Source: Mumia sp. Pv4-285
GTDB lineage: Bacteria; Actinomycetota; Actinomycetes; Propionibacteriales; Nocardioidaceae
NCBI RefSeq assembly: GCF_041320275.1
Contig: NZ_CP162023.1
Span: forward strand, 2,852,001 to 2,916,000
Reading direction: 5' to 3'
DNA: 64,000 nt
The notes under the pieces are model-generated. The model had not been told where the DNA came from, made no database searches, and worked only from the letters and a program-made list of their open reading frames with translations. Within the stretch, counting starts at the first letter, position 1, and each line of letters begins with the position of its first letter. Below, in pieces: positions 271 to 6,253 of the stretch. Made by a program: the position numbers and the translations under genes.

Positions 271-297
271 ATGAGAGTTCTCTCATCCGCACTTCAT
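271..297. promoter_or_regulatory. Operator candidate: palindrome plus 11-bp repeat, upstream of the sensor operon
   Basis: ATGAGAG-TT-CTCTCAT (271-286) is a perfect inverted repeat. Its halves ATGAG (271) and CTCAT (282) are 11 bp apart, and a further TTCAT follows at 293, again 11 bp on. Phased 11-bp units are the usual target form of OmpR/PhoB-type regulators. The site is 34-60 bp before the first gene of the operon encoding such a regulator, so autoregulation is the simplest reading. It also lies upstream of ribF on the other strand. It matches the larger site at 4300-4359. Confidence 0.55.
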
Positions 298-330: not shown

Positions 331-684
331 ATGACGCTCTCGACGAAGATCGCGCTCGCCCTGCTCGGCGTTCTCGTCGCCGTCGTGGGAGCGACGGCGG
401 CGTTCGCGGGACTAGGTTCGTCGGCCCCGGCTCCGGGCGAGACGCAGCCCTTGCGCATCGCCCCTACGACCGCCGCTCCGACGGCGACGACGACGACGGA
501 TCCCGCGCCCACTCCCCGACCCACGAGCCCGCCGACCCGCCCGGGTGACGGTGACGACGACGACTTCGAGCAGCAGACCCCCACGCCGCGCACGCTGGAC
601 GACGACGGCAGCGATGATGGAGACGACGACGGCGGCGATGACGGCGGCGACGACAGCGGCGATGACGATGGGGACGACGACTGA
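331..684 (+). CDS. Small exported protein with an Asp/Gly-rich acidic tail
   Basis: A 117-residue protein of unknown family. Residues 1-27 form an uncleaved anchor or signal peptide (short basic start, then a long Leu/Val/Ala stretch). Residues 30-70 are Pro/Thr-rich and look like an extended cell-wall linker. The last 45 residues are almost entirely Asp and Gly with a few Ser, encoded by GAC/GAT/GGC repeats. A polyanionic extracellular tail could bind divalent cations or cationic peptides, but that is inference. The ATG at 331 was chosen because the hydrophobic segment begins right after it; longer versions add unrelated sequence. Its stop TGA (682-684) overlaps the putative CTG start of the sensor kinase, so the two are likely translationally coupled and the protein may be a ligand-binding partner of that sensor. 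Confidence 0.72.
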   Translation: MTLSTKIALALLGVLVAVVGATAAFAGLGSSAPAPGETQPLRIAPTTAAPTATTTTDPAPTPRPTSPPTRPGDGDDDDFEQQTPTPRTLDDDGSDDGDDDGGDDGGDDSGDDDGDDD

Positions 685-2123
685 GCGCACGGACTGCCTT
701 CTCCGTACGTCAGCGCATCACGGGCGTGGTGGCGCTGCTGACGGGCGTCGCGCTGCTCTGCGCCGGGCTCGCGGCGTACTTCGTCGAGCTGCGCCGCGTC
801 GACGACCACGTCCGTGAGCAGATCACCCAGGAGCTGAGAGAGTTCCAGACGTTGCAGGAGCGCGGCGTCGACCCTGAGACGAACGCGCCGTTCACCGACC
901 CCGACAGCCTCCTGACGACGTTCATGACCCGCAACCAGCCCAACGCGCACGAGCGGATCATCGCGTTCTCGAGCGACGGCGAGCGTCGCTTCCTCGGTCG
1001 CCGCGACTCCTCGCTGTTCTCCTCCCCGGACTTCACTGAGGCAGTCGACCGCCTCCGGGCCGCGGGCGGCAGCACGGTCGTCGAGACAAGCACCGGGCGC
1101 CACGTGATCGCCGTACGCCCCGTCCTCGGGCCGGCCGACAAGGACGCGGCGTTCGTCGTCGCCTGGAACGTCACCGCCCAGCGGGCGGAGATCCGGAGCA
1201 TGCTCCTGACCTACGTGGCCGTCGCGTTCGGCTCATGGCTCGTCATCACGCTGGTCGCCTGGCTGATCGCGGGACGGCTGCTGCGGCCGGTCCGCACGCT
1301 TCGTACGACCGCGGCGCGGATCACCGACGGCGGCGACCTCAGTCGCCGGATCCCGGTCACCGGCAGCGACGACCTCACGGCGCTCACGGAGACCCTCAAC
1401 GAGATGCTCGAACGCCTCGACCAGGCCTTCGCCTCGCAGCGCGAGCTCCTCGACGACGCCGGCCATGAGCTGCGCACCCCGCTCACCGTCCTCCGCGGCC
1501 ACCTCGAGCTGATGGACGTCGACGACCCGGTCGAGGTGGCGTCGACGCAGGCGCTCCTGCTCGACGAGGTTGACCGGATGAGCCTGCTCGTCGACGACCT
1601 TCTTGTCCTCGCCAAGGCGCGGCGCCCCGACTTCGTGCGCCCCGAACCCGTCGACGCGGTCGCTCTCGTCACCGGGATCCTGGACAAGTGCCGGGCGCTG
1701 GGCCCGCGCGCGTGGGTCCTCGACGCCATGCCCCACGACGGCTCGGTCTCGCACCTCGACCCCCGCCGTACGACCCAGGCCGTCCTCCAGCTCGCCGAGA
1801 ACGCCGTACGCCACACCGCTGACGGCGACACCGTCGCGGTCGGCTGCACGGTGGACCGCCACGGCACCACGCTCTGGGTGCGTGACAGCGGCCCGGGTGT
1901 GAGTCCTGCTGACCGCGCGGTGCTGTTCGAGCGGTTCCGTCGCGGCACCGCCCCACGCGGCGAGGGCTTCGGTCTGGGACTCTCCATCGTCTCGGCGATC
2001 GCCGACGCCCACGGAGGCACCGTCTCGCTCGACCCCTACCGTCCGGGAGAGGGCGCGACGTTCCGTCTCTTCCTGCCCGACACCATCGCCGAGACCACCG
2101 ACACCGCCGAAGGAGAACGATGA
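681..2123 (+). CDS. Two-component sensor histidine kinase (HisKA type, with HAMP)
   Basis: Membrane sensor kinase, about 480 residues. Layout: first membrane helix near residues 16-36, an extracellular sensor domain of about 120 residues, second helix near 175-200, a HAMP linker, the dimerisation/His domain with H-box LLDDAGHELRTPLTV (His about 262), then a HATPase domain with N-box (QLAENAVRHT), G1 (VRDSGPGV) and G2 (GFGLGLS). The first conventional start is GTG at 726, but it would cut off the basic RTAFSVRQRIT stretch that normally precedes helix one. No ATG, GTG or TTG lies between the in-frame stop at 663 and 726, so CTG at 681, overlapping the upstream TGA as CTGA, is preferred. The downstream regulator overlaps by ATGA. 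Confidence 0.9.
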   Translation: MSARTAFSVRQRITGVVALLTGVALLCAGLAAYFVELRRVDDHVREQITQELREFQTLQERGVDPETNAPFTDPDSLLTTFMTRNQPNAHERIIAFSSDGERRFLGRRDSSLFSSPDFTEAVDRLRAAGGSTVVETSTGRHVIAVRPVLGPADKDAAFVVAWNVTAQRAEIRSMLLTYVAVAFGSWLVITLVAWLIAGRLLRPVRTLRTTAARITDGGDLSRRIPVTGSDDLTALTETLNEMLERLDQAFASQRELLDDAGHELRTPLTVLRGHLELMDVDDPVEVASTQALLLDEVDRMSLLVDDLLVLAKARRPDFVRPEPVDAVALVTGILDKCRALGPRAWVLDAMPHDGSVSHLDPRRTTQAVLQLAENAVRHTADGDTVAVGCTVDRHGTTLWVRDSGPGVSPADRAVLFERFRRGTAPRGEGFGLGLSIVSAIADAHGGTVSLDPYRPGEGATFRLFLPDTIAETTDTAEGER

Positions 2124-2785
2124 GCAGCATCCTCGTGATCGAGGACGAGGACCGGATCGCGTCGTTCGTCGCCAAGGGACTCCGGTCCGAGGGCTACACG
2201 GTCACCATCGTCGCCGACGGGATCACCGGCCAGGACTATGCGCTGACCGGCGACTTCGACCTGGTCGTCCTCGACATCGGCCTGCCGCTCCTGGACGGCT
2301 TCTCGATCCTCGACCGGCTCGCGGTGGAGCGACCCGCGCTGCCGGTGATCGTGCTGACAGCCCGCGACTCCGTGACCGACACCGTCGCAGCGCTGGAAGG
2401 CGGCGCGGCCGACTACATGAGCAAACCGTTCCGGTTCGACGAGCTCGTGGCTCGCGTCCGGCTGCGTCTGCGCGCCGTTCCCGGCGGCGGACCGGCGGAC
2501 GACGTGCTCGAGGTCGCCGGCGTCCGGCTCGACCTGCGCCGCCGGGTGGCCAGCGTCCACGGCAAGGACGTGGAGCTGTCCTCGCGGGAGTTCACCCTCG
2601 CCGAGGTGTTCCTCCGCAACCCCGACCACGCGCTCTCGCGGGAACAGCTGCTGTCCCAGGTCTGGGGGTACGACTTCGACCCCGGGTCGAACGTCGTGGA
2701 CGTCTACGTCGGCTACCTGCGCAAGAAGCTCGGCTCCGACCTCATCAAGACCGTGCGCGGCGTCGGATACCGGTACGGCGGCTGA
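2120..2785 (+). CDS. OmpR/PhoB-family response regulator
   Basis: Cytoplasmic DNA-binding regulator, 221 residues, the expected family length. The receiver domain has the acidic pocket ED at residues 8-9, phospho-acceptor Asp52 (VVLDIGLP) and Lys102 (SKPF). A winged-helix effector domain begins near residue 125 and ends with the characteristic SNVVDVYVGYLRKKLG and VRGVGYRY strands. The ATG overlaps the kinase stop (ATGA), so it is the cognate partner. Members of this family bind direct repeats spaced 11 bp, and such repeats occur in front of three nearby genes (271, 4300, 6220), making it the best candidate to control them. Exact subfamily (MprA-, CseB- or PhoP-like) is not certain from sequence alone. 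Confidence 0.93.
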   Translation: MSSILVIEDEDRIASFVAKGLRSEGYTVTIVADGITGQDYALTGDFDLVVLDIGLPLLDGFSILDRLAVERPALPVIVLTARDSVTDTVAALEGGAADYMSKPFRFDELVARVRLRLRAVPGGGPADDVLEVAGVRLDLRRRVASVHGKDVELSSREFTLAEVFLRNPDHALSREQLLSQVWGYDFDPGSNVVDVYVGYLRKKLGSDLIKTVRGVGYRYGG

Positions 2786-2797
2786 CGGCTTGGGCGA

Positions 2798-3685
2798 TCA
2801 GGCGGTCGCCGAGATCTTGAAGCCTGCCAGGCGAGCCTTCGGCATCGCCTCCATGAGCGGCTCGATCAGCCGGGCGATCTCGGCGGGCGCCGGACGGTCC
2901 TGCGGTGCTGGAGCCATGCAGCGGTACACCAGCTCCGCGACCTCGACGGGCACGAAGTACGGCATCGGCCGGGGGCGGCTCACCAGCTGGGGATAGCGGA
3001 CCTCGAGCGGGTCGTCGCCCCCGCCGATCGCGAACGGCGCGTAGCCGCTCGCCGCGTAGTAGAGCGATGCGCCCAGGCCCCACACGTCGCTCGCCGGTCC
3101 GGGAGCGCCGTACCCCTGCGGGTCGGCCTGCTCAGGCGCCATGTAGTCGTCCGTGCCCAGGACGTAGGTCAGCGCCTGCGCGTCCTCGGTCCGGCGCGCG
3201 ATGCTGAGATCGATCAGCTTGGCGGGCGAGCCCATGATGACGTTGCTCGGCTTGACGTCGAGGTGGACGACGTCGCGTACGCCCAGGTAGTGGAGCGCCG
3301 AGGCGAGCTCGAGGCCGAGCGGCAGCAGCTGCTGCACCGGGAGCGCTCCGTGCTTGCGGACCAGCGACGAGAGCCGCGGACCGTCGATGTTCTCGAGGAT
3401 CAGGTGCGGCCGGGGGGCGTCGAGGTCGAGCCCGAACCGTCGTACGACGGCAGGGTGCGCGAGCTCGTCGAGCATCTGCGCCTCACGCGCCAGTCCGCGC
3501 AGCGTCGTCTCGTCGTCGACCTGGTCGGGTCGGACGACCTTGACGACCACCGGCGCGTGCAGGACCTCGTCGAAGCAGAGGTAGGCCTCGTACGCGTTGC
3601 CGCCGCCGAGCAGGCGCATCGCGATGAGGTCGTCGGTGAGCGAGTCGCCACGGGCGAGCTCCCAGGAGGCCAGCTGATCGGTCAT
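2798..3685 (-). CDS. Soluble Ser/Thr protein kinase (Hanks type)
   Basis: A 295-residue eukaryotic-like kinase with no membrane helix or extracellular domain, unlike PknB. Visible elements: Gly-rich loop LGGGNAYEAY (26-35), ATP-binding Lys49 (VVVKVV), catalytic loop HLDVKPSNV (His-Leu-Asp instead of His-Arg-Asp; Asp143, Lys145, Asn148), metal-binding Asp159 in DLSIA (Asp-Leu-Ser replaces DFG), and MAPEQ (182-186). All catalytic residues are present, so it should be active, but the HLD/DLS variants set it apart. I chose ATG 3685 because longer readings run into the unrelated gene upstream and a GTAGGGA ribosome site precedes it. It converges with the response regulator, leaving only 12 bp between stops. 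Its target is unknown. Confidence 0.88.
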   Translation of the reverse strand: MTDQLASWELARGDSLTDDLIAMRLLGGGNAYEAYLCFDEVLHAPVVVKVVRPDQVDDETTLRGLAREAQMLDELAHPAVVRRFGLDLDAPRPHLILENIDGPRLSSLVRKHGALPVQQLLPLGLELASALHYLGVRDVVHLDVKPSNVIMGSPAKLIDLSIARRTEDAQALTYVLGTDDYMAPEQADPQGYGAPGPASDVWGLGASLYYAASGYAPFAIGGGDDPLEVRYPQLVSRPRPMPYFVPVEVAELVYRCMAPAPQDRPAPAEIARLIEPLMEAMPKARLAGFKISATA

Positions 3686-3776: not shown

Positions 3777-4220
3777 TCAGGCGCGGCGGTAGCGGGTGTC
3801 GTTCTTGCTGCGGTCGTTGGTCCGGTTCGCCGAGCGGTCACGGGTCCGGTCACCGCCGTCGCGGGTCCAGTCCCTCGTCTTGTCGGCGCGGCTCCGGTCG
3901 CGGTCGCGGCTCACCTTGGTCTTCCGGCTGTTGGTGCGGTCGTTGCTGCGCGCGGAGTTGCGGCTGTGCGCGGTGCCGCGGCTGATGTTCGAGCGCGTCG
4001 CCCGGCTGCGCGTGTTCGTGTCGTCCGCCTTGCGTGCGCCGTCGTCGTCATCGTCGTCGTCTGCGACGAGCACGACGGCGTCCTCGCCGTCGATCCGCTT
4101 CGTGACGGCGGGCTGCTCGGCGGTCGCGGTCGACATCGACGAGGCACCCCAGGCAACACCGCCCAGGGCGATGGTGGCGCCGAGTGCCGCGACGCCGGTC
4201 CGGATGATCGAGCTGCTCAT
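3777..4220 (-). CDS. Exported low-complexity protein rich in Arg/Asp/Ser/Asn
   Basis: A 147-residue protein of no family I recognise. Residues 1-32 look like a signal peptide (SSIIRTGVAALGATIALGG, then small residues). A short segment follows (KRIDGEDAVVLVA), then a run of seven Asp near residue 55, and finally about 85 residues made almost only of Arg, Asp, Ser, Asn, Thr and Lys, without hydrophobic residues. This part must be disordered. The start ATG 4220 has a good AAGGGGA ribosome site; extending further upstream would translate through the operator. It shares an Asp run and a related operator with the exported protein at 331-684. Role unknown; a wall-associated polyelectrolyte is a guess. 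Confidence 0.68.
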   Translation of the reverse strand: MSSSIIRTGVAALGATIALGGVAWGASSMSTATAEQPAVTKRIDGEDAVVLVADDDDDDDGARKADDTNTRSRATRSNISRGTAHSRNSARSNDRTNSRKTKVSRDRDRSRADKTRDWTRDGGDRTRDRSANRTNDRSKNDTRYRRA

Positions 4221-4299
4221 GATGGTCCCCTTGTGGTCTCTCGCCGGCGGTGCCGGCGGTTTGCCTTCGTTCTGACACCACTGATGCTGTCGAGACGCA

Positions 4300-4359
4300 G
4301 TGAGACCTGTGTGAGTCGACGGTGAGAGCGCTCTCACCGTGCGTTCACCGTCCGTTCAC
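4300..4359. promoter_or_regulatory. Symmetric six-unit, 11-bp-phased operator
   Basis: GTGAG at 4300, 4311 and 4322, then CTCAC at 4333 and TTCAC at 4344 and 4355. Every unit starts exactly 11 bp after the previous one, and the array is two-fold symmetric about 4329.5, with GGTGAGAG-CG-CTCTCACC (4321-4338) as perfect centre. The rightmost two units are GTTCACC repeats, the core of the 11-nt PHO-box units described for Streptomyces PhoP. The site lies 80-139 bp before the minus-strand exported-protein gene. Binding by the OmpR-type regulator at 2120 is inferred. Confidence 0.72.
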
Positions 4360-4383
4360 CCACGGAATCCGCGTGGCGGGGCG

Positions 4384-5619
4384 CTACAGCAGGGGACGCA
4401 GGGGCACCAGAACGGCCTCACTGAAGCGGGCCCGGTGGCGGCGGCTCGACCACTCCTCGAGGGTGAGCTCGCGCGTGGCGGTGCAGTCGTTCTCGAAGAC
4501 GCGGTCCATCATCGCCGCGACGCTCTCGTCGACGACCTCGGCGTTCACCTCGTAGTTGCCGGTGAGGCTCAGGCGGTCGATGTTGGCGGTGCCGATGGTC
4601 GACCAGCGTCCGTCGATCGTCGCGGTCTTCGCGTGGACCATCGCTCCCTGGAAGAGCAGGATCTTGACGCCGCCGCGGAGCAGCTGTGAGTAGAACCCGC
4701 GCGAGAGCCAGTCGCAGAGGACGTGGTTGGAGATCTCGGGAACGATGACCCGGACGTCCACGCCCCGCCCGGCCGCACGCAGCAGCGCCGCGAGGACGTC
4801 GCGGTCGGGGATGAAGTAGGCCTGCGTGATCGAGACCCGAAGGCTCGCACGGTCGATCGCGTCCAGGTACATGTTGCGGATCGGGAACGACAGGTGGATC
4901 GGCGCGTTGCGGTGCGCCCGGAATCGGGGCTCCCACTCGATGTCGCCCGTGTCGACCAGGTCGGGCTGAGATCCCTTCCGGTGAGCGTTCCAGAAGTCGA
5001 CGAACGCGTTGTTGAGCTCCCACGTCAGCGGCCCCTCGACGCGCAGGTGGGTGTCTCGCCACTTCGTCGCGTAGTCGGACCCGATGTTGTAGCCGCCGAC
5101 GAAGCCGACCTTGCGGTCGACGACCAGGATCTTGCGGTGGTCGCGACCGGTCTTGCGGATCCGCAGCACGAAGATCCATGGCGTGAACCACGGGTGCCGC
5201 ATGACGTGGACGGAGGGCGGGAACCGCTTGAACGAGCGCTTGACGACCAGGTTCGCGAACACGTCGTAGATGACGTGCACCTTCACCCCGCGCTCCGCGG
5301 CGGCGATGATCTCGCGCTTGAACTGCTCGCCGAGCGCGTCGTCCTTCCAGATGTACGACTCGAGATGGACCTCGTGCTTCGCGCCCCGGATCTCCGCGAG
5401 CATCGCGTCGAAGAGGTCGCGTCCGTAGGTGTAGAGCGTGAGGGTCGAGTCGCCGAGCTTCTCCGAGATCGGCGGGAGTCGCGGGAACACCACCTCGTCG
5501 GCGTCCCCGACCCGCCGCTTGCGCCGCGTGTCGACGATCATGAGGACCGCGGTCACCAGCACGATCAGGACGAACCAGATCGCCACGAACCACAGCGCGA
5601 TGTTCAGGATCGTCGACAT
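4384..5619 (-). CDS. Cardiolipin synthase-like phospholipase D family protein
   Basis: Membrane phospholipid enzyme of the PLD superfamily, 411 residues. An N-terminal membrane helix (8-29) is followed by two HKD catalytic motifs: HRKILVVD (His161, Lys163, Asp168) with the following GFVGGYNIG, and VHAKTATID (His329, Lys331, Asp336) with GTANID. Both are intact, so it should transfer phosphatidyl groups, most plausibly making cardiolipin from phosphatidylglycerol. Mycobacteria use a different, CDP-alcohol-type enzyme, so a Cls-type gene in an actinobacterium is worth noting. It has no close downstream partner; the operator at 4300-4359 begins 25 bases past its stop. Position beside an envelope-sensing cluster suggests a membrane-stress role. 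Confidence 0.85.
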   Translation of the reverse strand: MSTILNIALWFVAIWFVLIVLVTAVLMIVDTRRKRRVGDADEVVFPRLPPISEKLGDSTLTLYTYGRDLFDAMLAEIRGAKHEVHLESYIWKDDALGEQFKREIIAAAERGVKVHVIYDVFANLVVKRSFKRFPPSVHVMRHPWFTPWIFVLRIRKTGRDHRKILVVDRKVGFVGGYNIGSDYATKWRDTHLRVEGPLTWELNNAFVDFWNAHRKGSQPDLVDTGDIEWEPRFRAHRNAPIHLSFPIRNMYLDAIDRASLRVSITQAYFIPDRDVLAALLRAAGRGVDVRVIVPEISNHVLCDWLSRGFYSQLLRGGVKILLFQGAMVHAKTATIDGRWSTIGTANIDRLSLTGNYEVNAEVVDESVAAMMDRVFENDCTATRELTLEEWSSRRHRARFSEAVLVPLRPLL

Positions 5620-5660: not shown

Positions 5661-5674
5661 GCGTCACGTGACGC
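5661..5674. repeat. 14-bp perfect palindrome at a gene end
   Basis: GCGTCACGTGACGC is self-complementary with no loop and overlaps the stop codon (5664-5666) of the exported-protein gene, 42 bases upstream of the cardiolipin-synthase-like start. It could be a regulator site for the latter or chance in GC-rich DNA. Confidence 0.3.
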
Positions 5675-6134
5675 CGTAGACGAAATCTGGACCGTGCCAC
5701 GACAAGCCTTCCGCACGCAGCTTCATGACGACGTGGTAGTCCTCAGGGATGTTGCCCGAGCCGTCGGGCGTCCCGAGGTTCTCGGTGCACCGGTAGCCGC
5801 AGGAGAAGTTGTCGACGTCGACGAGCTTGCCCGACGTGTTGAACACCCGGAGCTCGACCTGTGCCTCGCGACCGTCGGACTTGTTGTCCCGGATGTAGAG
5901 AAGCTCACCGCTCGGCTCGAAGTACGCCGAGTAGTGCACATCGGCGTACGAGGAACCTCGCGGGAACAGCGTCCACGAGAGCGCCCGGCCACCCGGGTCG
6001 CTGTCCGACCACCGGTCGATGGCCCGGGAGTCGTAGTCGACCGCCGCCTGCGCCGGCGATGTCGCGGCGGCACCGAGCGCCAGCCCGCTCGCGGCCACGA
6101 CGACCGCCGTACGCCACCTCCTGCTGCCCATCAT
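5664..6134 (-). CDS. Small secreted protein, unknown function
   Basis: A 156-residue protein with a clear Sec signal peptide: basic SRRWRT, hydrophobic core to about residue 22, and a likely signal-peptidase site at AQA-A near residue 31. The mature part of about 125 residues has two Cys in CGYRC that may form a disulfide, and mixed polar beta-like segments (QVELRVFNTSGKLV). No family recognised. Two adjacent ATG codons (6134 and 6131) are possible starts, both served by GGGAG. It has its own promoter region carrying two TTCAC units 11 bp apart, so it probably belongs to the same regulon as the other exported proteins here. Confidence 0.78.
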   Translation of the reverse strand: MMGSRRWRTAVVVAASGLALGAAATSPAQAAVDYDSRAIDRWSDSDPGGRALSWTLFPRGSSYADVHYSAYFEPSGELLYIRDNKSDGREAQVELRVFNTSGKLVDVDNFSCGYRCTENLGTPDGSGNIPEDYHVVMKLRAEGLSWHGPDFVYGVT

Positions 6135-6217
6135 GAGAGCTCCCGTCCCGGTCCGGGTCCGCGGAGACCATCTCCGCGTGGCCATCGGACGCCACCAGGC
6201 AAGCGTGGACGAGCGGA

Positions 6218-6235
6218 CTTTCACTGCGCTTTCAC
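6218..6235. promoter_or_regulatory. 11-bp direct repeat CTTTCAC upstream of a secreted protein
   Basis: CTTTCAC occurs at 6218-6224 and again at 6229-6235, exactly 11 bp apart, 84-101 bp before the minus-strand start at 6134. In the gene's direction these read GTGAAAG twice, the same orientation as the outer GTGAA units of the 4300-4359 operator. Confidence 0.45.
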
Positions 6236-6253
6236 CGCATCGCCCGCAGGGTC

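Follow-up and report, generated by a model that had tools for sequence, protein, structure and literature searches.

A phased six-unit array before a small secreted-protein gene of Mumia sp. Pv4-285: most likely the operator of a widespread actinobacterial two-component system, joined to a PHO box

Two described regulators provide the points of comparison for the operator considered here. The box of AgrR from Cupriavidus metallidurans, ATKACANNNNTGTMAT, is an inverted repeat of 6-4-6 build, accompanied at some operators by in-phase direct repeats on either side, and AgrR is presented in the part of that account drawn on here as an autoregulated activator of type II (PMC7380067). CusR of Escherichia coli, whose box is given as AAAATGACAAnnTTGTCATTTT, binds the palindrome TGACAAnnTTGTCA (PMC11195947). 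A broader statement, quoted here from part of its source, holds that all known sites of OmpR-family regulators are direct repeats; the same source gives GTTCACC-N4-GTTCACC as the motif of Streptomyces coelicolor PhoP (PMC4832192). According to the excerpt of another account used here, Streptomyces PhoP shares sites with, or competes for them with, AfsR and GlnR (PMC6988585).

Judged by sequence, an AgrR- or CusR-type box appears to be the closest known counterpart of the operator that we propose at positions 4300-4337 of the window, which is the whole stretch of 64,000 nucleotides analyzed (C1:2852001-2916000 of the 4.65-Mb source genome, G000). The core of this operator, RTGAGA-N4-TCTCAY, is a 16-bp inverted repeat with a 4-bp spacer and thus has the 6-4-6 build of AgrR, but with another half-site (TGAGA here versus TKACA in AgrR). 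Compared with what the consulted part of the AgrR account describes, the operator here usually has a third unit and commonly a fourth, which lie toward the gene at a constant distance from the -10 element, and the targets examined so far are secreted-type proteins rather than silver or copper resistance genes (PMC7380067). The likeness to CusR lies in the palindrome, the equal half-site spacing and a very small regulon, with the operon of the regulator among its members; the differences are that CusR responds to copper and silver and that tandem direct units are not mentioned in the consulted portion of its description (PMC11195947). Streptomyces MacR was dropped as a possible relative because the available part of a review lists it as NarL-type. 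A search of titles and abstract openings in the open-licence literature did not find an earlier description of the two-component system.

The array and the genes around it

The genes that bear on the array are the following.

331..684, plus strand: first gene (leader) of the two-component operon, encoding a 117-aa acidic, Asp-rich protein with 26 D+E and 5 K+R
726..2123, plus strand: sensor histidine kinase with HAMP, HisKA and HATPase_c domains, putative start, conserved acidic residues in the sensor region
2120..2785, plus strand: OmpR/PhoB-family response regulator, the proposed operator binder
2798..3685, minus strand: Ser/Thr protein kinase gene, downstream of the target gene
3777..4220, minus strand: proposed target gene, encoding a 147-aa protein with a signal-peptide-like start
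4384..5619, minus strand: phospholipase D / cardiolipin-synthase-like gene, the upstream neighbor, which ends 43 bp before the palindrome and is not a proposed target

Direct reading of the window places GTGAG at 4300, 4311 and 4322, CTCAC at 4333 and TTCAC at 4344 and 4355, with all starts 11 bp apart and a dyad axis at 4329.5, exactly as the first-pass annotation had given them. The center of the array, 4319-4340, is a perfect 22-bp inverted repeat (11+11). GTGAR-N6-GTGAR occurs five times in the window versus 0.44 expected, a count reached in 0 of 100 shuffles. One register of the real window holds six units, whereas the best register of 60 windows simulated with a first-order Markov model held two units in 59 cases and three in one; the independent-base expectation for a six-unit register is 3e-12 per window. 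On the strength of the shuffles, the simulated windows and this expectation, a chance origin was rejected: the array is genuine, and six units in exact phase go far beyond what chance would give.

A genome-wide search for GTGAR-N6-GTGAR, which had been proposed as a check, gave more matches than its reversed control (29 versus 9), but the pattern is not specific. Among its matches are, at a minimum, copies of this operator, of PHO boxes and of a GTGAAA-N5-GTGAAAG motif; several matches fall within coding frames, and the pattern was rejected as a signature of the regulon. Six of the 29 are three copies of one pair, identical in letters and spaced by 2366-2367 bp, which are probably rRNA operons. 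The GTGAAA-N5-GTGAAAG motif is a different repeat, found in the window at 6213-6240 (coding strand minus) before a secreted-looking gene (5667-6134) and at three more genome loci (L010, L023 and L024), and is probably the box of another OmpR-family regulator.

Since the array sits between the end of the phospholipase gene and the start of 3777-4220, it should be the promoter region of the latter. We consider it best read as two back-to-back operators, 4300-4337 on the minus strand and 4343-4360 on the plus strand, with the following parts; the list includes a second operator at the start of the two-component operon.

4322..4337, minus strand: core palindrome GTGAGAGCGCTCTCAC (RTGAGA-N4-TCTCAY), comprising units 1 (inverted) and 2; proposed operator of the regulator encoded at 2120
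4300..4315, minus strand: units 3 (4311-4315) and 4 (4300-4304), promoter-proximal direct CTCAC in 11-bp steps
4284..4289, minus strand: predicted -10 element CAGCAT (xAnnnT), at offset 48 from unit 1
4343..4360, plus strand: perfect PHO box GTTCACC-N4-GTTCACC, promoter-distal, whose units at 4344 and 4355 are in the 11-bp register of the array
271..297, plus strand: second operator, ATGAGAGTTCTCTCAT-N6-TTCAT, a shorter form at the promoter of the two-component operon

Read on the minus strand, 4300-4337 has a 1+3 form, that is, the palindrome and two further YTCAY units, followed by a -10 element at a fixed distance; transcription of 3777-4220 would start near 4277. The encoded protein contains seven consecutive Asp residues and ends in a tail rich in Arg and Asp that is common to relatives; it is not acidic overall (23 D+E versus 31 K+R) and gave no match in Pfam or NCBIfam.

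The regulator encoded at 2120 belongs to the OmpR/PhoB family, with scores of 87.5 bits for PF00072 and 89.1 bits for PF00486 (Trans_reg_C), both above the cut-off. Its best NCBIfam match is TIGR01387, the heavy-metal regulators CztR/SilR/CopR, at 193.4 bits; because this lies below the curated cut-off of 279.2, we do not file the regulator in that family and say only that it may work like its members. The first-pass annotation had interpreted the array as an operator for a regulator of the OmpR/PhoB type with 11-bp phasing and had named the protein encoded at 2120 as a binder to be tested. The sequence supports both points and makes this protein the best candidate; the eleven other strong OmpR-type regulators in the source genome count against regarding it as the sole one.

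In the same operon, the protein encoded at 331-684 has one N-terminal hydrophobic segment, is predicted to be translated from a leaderless mRNA with its start at 331 and is possibly part of signal sensing. Among 24 kinases compared, residues E36 and E39 of the sensor region are present in 23 and E76 in all 24. The operon (331-2785) converges with the Ser/Thr kinase gene, which is syntenic in three same-genus genomes (G001, G002 and G005) and decayed in a fourth (G003). At another locus, L252, a 2+2 operator is shared by the Asp-rich leader and, on its other side, a kinase-like frame that begins 60 bp away from it. This arrangement and the synteny with the two-component system suggest that the Ser/Thr kinase gene may belong to the regulon.

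Operator copies in the source genome and among relatives

The sequence TGAGAGNNCTCTCA has two copies in the 4.65-Mb genome, one at the center of the array and one at window positions 272-285 in the two-component promoter (none in the reversed control). Exact matches to the looser RTGAGANNNNTCTCAY number five. Two of these are again the array and the promoter of the two-component operon; a third, at C1:983786, precedes a gene for RTX calcium-binding repeats (PF00353; product with 34 D+E versus 17 K+R), and a fourth, at C1:2270045, precedes a paralog of the target gene (17 D+E versus 11 K+R, net -6). The fifth, at C1:2052252, lies inside a coding frame with no further units and was dropped as a probable chance match. 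When one mismatch was allowed, the palindrome had 12 genome sites versus 5 in the reversed control, so only exact sites are informative, and seven one-mismatch palindromes (L053-L057 and two without a locus) were left out. On the coding strand of the four retained sites, YTCAY is present at +22 in all four and at +33 in three. A search for the whole operator together with its -10 element, with up to three mismatches, matched three gene promoters in the genome (0, 0 and 1 mismatch; control 0), all of them before genes for secreted-looking proteins, as well as the array read backwards (2 mismatches).

Across six same-genus genomes including the source, the regulator was detected in four (E <= 1e-60), and each of these four has the palindrome both at the promoter of the regulator operon and at the target gene. 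The palindrome was found in four of the five other genomes (control 0); G001, G002 and G005 carry it at the operon promoter and the target gene, and G005 additionally at the RTX-repeat gene and the paralog. In G004, neither the regulator nor the site was found at the cut-offs used. In G003, a tblastn search of the corresponding stretch gave no hit for the kinase, the regulator or the target gene; that the promoter of the operon is nevertheless intact counts against our preferred explanation. In the same genome, unit 2 of the array remnant and unit 3 of the RTX-gene operator both read CTTAT, and the RTX-gene frame looks interrupted. G003 (L248 and L064) has thus naturally lost the kinase and regulator genes as well as the target gene and has damaged operators, which makes it a helpful strain for comparison.

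Across 294 genomes of the same family, a 27-nt site pattern was detected in 176 and the regulator (E <= 1e-70) in 180; both were present in 170, the site only in 6, the regulator only in 10 and neither in 108, such that 16 genomes were discordant in this count, which is not corrected for phylogeny. Opening five of the regulator-only genomes with a looser pattern revealed the site in three. Among 246 genomes of the class (regulator at E <= 1e-65), the corresponding numbers were 50, 4, 26 and 166, and for the 225 of these outside the family they were 34, 4, 25 and 162. The E-value cut-offs were our own choice, and the Fisher tests applied to these tables ignore phylogeny. The strict site is absent in 25 of 59 regulator-bearing genomes outside the family, which counts against the pairing; it is chiefly such regulator-only genomes that argue against a strict one-to-one link of site and regulator.

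Outside the family, 32 regulators that share a contig with a listed site were compared, and 25 of them have a site in the same orientation 1.3-2.7 kb upstream; its absence in the other 7 likewise counts against the link. This comparison left out genomes and contigs without a listed site, together with three weaker paralogs in G342 and G402. Eighty more distant loci, fetched by regulator alignment, contain the exact palindrome in five cases (Rhodococcoides, Rhodococcus ruber, Rhodococcus sp., Cellulomonas and Nesterenkonia) and, with up to one mismatch, 15 matches in 10 loci versus 1 in the reversed control. In G402 (C1:5814084-5819123), a second, more distant regulator paralog (56% identity) lies between two sites of the pattern, which suggests a duplication of the whole system.

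To describe the operator itself, 20 regulator neighborhoods were hand-picked from the 180 regulator-bearing family genomes (16 genera by their labels), five of them from the ten genomes without the strict site. With up to one mismatch, their 254 kb contain 35 matches to the palindrome versus 0 in the reversed control. A site upstream of the regulator's own operon, the other trait by which we recognize an AgrR- or CusR-type box, is present here (271-297) and in 18 of the 20 neighborhoods, where the palindrome, exact in 15 and off by one letter in 3, lies at a distance of 1.8-2.4 kb before the start of the regulator. Another palindrome lies downstream in 14 (exact in 6; up to one mismatch allowed). 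Each of the 18 neighborhoods with the upstream palindrome has, beginning at offset 60 or 61, a frame that encodes a leader with D+E above K+R, L183 being a weak case (13 versus 11). Downstream sites precede a frame with a tail like that of the window protein (TNDRSRNDTR or close variants) in 11 of 17 cases, in proteins with about as many basic as acidic residues.

Sixty of 65 sites could be oriented; the other five, which include the window array and that of G005, were left out. At offset 48, a -10 element of the form xAnnnT is present in 51 of the 60, versus 0 to 4 at 19 other offsets. Unit 4 is present in 37, and all 23 sites that lack it have ATG or GTG at offset 60 or 61, for which reason their mRNAs are probably leaderless. 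Unit 3 is present in 59, a count biased by the fact that L152-L181 were fetched with a pattern demanding it; unit 4, the -10 element and distal units lay outside that pattern. The overlap of the operator with the -35 region and the fixed -10 offset point to the geometry of a class II activator.

The constant -10 distance and the second copy before the two-component operon also bear on whether the palindrome might simply be the transcription terminator of the phospholipase D-like gene. A perfect 11+11 inverted repeat starting 43 bp past the stop codon of that gene would suit a terminator, but no T-run follows the palindrome on the minus strand, and both of these recurrent features speak against one; we regard this reading as barely credible.

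Collectively, these observations suggest that 4300-4337 is very probably the operator of the regulator encoded at 2120, and that this landing site on the left of the array is most likely common to many actinobacteria. Loss of the 11-bp phase in related genomes had been named as evidence that would overturn the interpretation; because the phase is kept there, the comparison does not do so. The symmetric 3+3 arrangement was not supported as a conserved unit, as relatives show one inverted unit and two or three direct units toward the gene.

The first-pass annotation had also called the head-to-head array unusual. Six units in one register are real, but symmetric arrays are not unique to this locus: five symmetric-looking sites opened elsewhere comprise four 2+2 and one 2+3, such that symmetry alone is not unusual. 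One 2+2 array, at L252, separates two divergent genes that belong to the same locus, one for the Asp-rich leader and one Ser/Thr-kinase-like, and it is such symmetric sites that would favor reading the window array as a symmetric operator for two divergent promoters. To the right of the array, however, there is no likely gene start on the plus strand: what lies there is the end (4384) of the minus-strand phospholipase gene, and CGCGTG at 4370-4375, where a rightward -10 element would fall, lacks both the conserved A and the conserved T. We consider divergent promoters very improbable here.

The targets read so far behind the operator are Asp-rich, RTX-repeat and bactofilin-domain proteins, with no recognizable efflux genes; the bactofilin assignment stems from one tested relative. 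In L158 and L178, loci of relatives, the protein encoded behind the operator begins with a signal-peptide-like segment and has a bactofilin domain (PF04519; the domain search covered L158 only), an unusual setting for this fold.

The PHO box on the distal side

The right half of the array, 4343-4360, consists of two GTTCACC units with a 4-bp spacer and lies 5 bp from the palindrome with the register kept. In the six same-genus genomes, the perfect motif has 12 copies (control 0), located at pstS (6), at phoU/phoR (4) and at the array (2, in G000 and G005). The neighbors were recognized by their reading frames, with Pfam applied to the G000 copies only; the G000 pstS product matches a general periplasmic-binding-protein family. 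The source genome encodes a locus of phoU, sensor kinase and PhoP-like regulator, with the PhoP-like regulator after phoR. Because the other perfect copies are at pstS or phoU/phoR, the earlier reading of this half as a PHO box stands as far as sequence can tell, and so does the earlier choice of PhoP as a second candidate regulator.

At the target gene, the PHO box is present in G000 and its nearest relative, G005, and absent in G001 and G002, and a single unit remains beside the remnant in G003. G001 and G002 keep the target gene and the 1+3 operator and lack the two distal TTCAC units. The box at the array is oriented to its gene in the direction opposite to that at pstS, which counts against function. 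On balance we lean modestly toward a functional PHO half, and its function is the weakest part of our best explanation. PhoP could also recognize unit 4333-4337, which would then be its third and a weaker one.

Compared with the Streptomyces PHO box, as described in the parts of the accounts available to us (PMC4832192; PMC6988585), 4343-4360 is a perfect match and the genome has further copies at pstS and phoU/phoR; it differs in its orientation to the gene, in sharing the phase of a neighboring operator that belongs to a different regulator, and in having been found at the target gene in G000 and G005 only. Likewise, relative to the overlap of PhoP with AfsR and GlnR reported in the consulted section of PMC6988585, the partner proposed here is an OmpR-family regulator with a head-to-head core.

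The presence of the PHO box raises the question of whether PhoP is the only protein involved, with the left half a degenerate inverted PHO box. The perfect right half would agree with this, but the left half and center have counterparts in 176 of the 294 family genomes, where they track the regulator encoded at 2120, and the 1+3 operator is kept without a PHO box in G001 and G002; a PhoP-only operator is highly implausible.

A more serious alternative leaves the role of 4300-4337 unchanged and disputes the PHO half only. In this scheme, the regulator encoded at 2120 would alone bind all six units as 3+3, with the distal TTCAC units as extra half-sites. All units share one register, and AgrR operators can have in-phase direct repeats on either side, according to the consulted part of their description (PMC7380067). 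The RTX-gene operators of G000 and G005 have GTGAAC at -22 and a degraded unit at -11, L253, one of the five symmetric sites elsewhere, has GTGAA at -11, and unit 3 at L178 is GTTCAC; the regulator may itself accept TTCAC units. Set against this, the distal pair is a perfect GTTCACC-N4-GTTCACC, otherwise found in the six genomes only at pstS and phoU/phoR, and of the 60 oriented sites none has RTGAR at -11 and one has it at -22, although symmetric sites were removed by the rule used for orientation. We therefore regard binding of all six units by this one regulator as possible but unlikely. The suggested loading with six monomers, taken as those of one protein, gives way to about four monomers of the regulator encoded at 2120 and a PhoP dimer as the likelier occupancy, because G001 and G002 lack the two distal TTCAC units, which form a perfect PHO box in the source genome and G005.

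Proposed regulation and its meaning

From the observed units and their phase, their genome-wide rarity, their co-occurrence with the regulator, the fixed -10 spacing and the identity of the PHO box, we infer binding by the regulator and the direction of regulation, in a model of autoregulated class II activation with PhoP modulating the promoter of 3777-4220. The regulator encoded at 2120 would activate the secreted-protein gene through 4300-4337 on the minus strand. The head-to-head pair of half-sites, RTGAGA-N4-TCTCAY, would nucleate binding, further monomers would stack in 11-bp steps toward the gene over the would-be -35 position, and the stacked monomers would touch RNA polymerase at the -10 element, 10 bp beyond unit 4. 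Through 271-297, the regulator would likewise activate the operon that encodes it, and it would act on two further genes elsewhere in the same way. In this lineage, the PHO box at 4343-4360 would have been added on the distal side in the same register, such that PhoP may help the regulator or compete with it for unit 4333-4337.

A divalent cation is a weak guess for the signal, prompted by the acidic operon leader, paralog and RTX-repeat protein and by the conserved acidic residues of the sensor region, and weakened because the 3777-4220 product is not acidic overall. It is also conceivable, though doubtful, that the two OmpR-family proteins, the regulator and PhoP, form a single uninterrupted filament, head to head and in phase, in which either may claim unit 4333-4337; if so, a 60-bp stretch would compute the phosphate signal and the envelope signal of the two-component system together.

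The analysis gives a sequence-level definition (27-54 nt, with the -10 element) of the proposed operator and of a small regulon for a two-component system that, at the cut-offs used, is spread over 180 of 294 family genomes and 76 of 246 class genomes. Four predicted promoters in the genome and the natural deletion in G003 now make its function and signal testable, and the addition of the PHO box, present in two species and absent in two others, provides a natural comparison. If bound as predicted, the operator would add to the OmpR-family regulators with a head-to-head core, AgrR and CusR, against the statement, in the part of the source consulted, that all known sites are direct repeats (PMC4832192). 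Collectively, our findings suggest that the array is most likely the on-switch of a small secreted-protein gene, an operator of a widespread actinobacterial two-component system that has been joined to a PHO box in this lineage.
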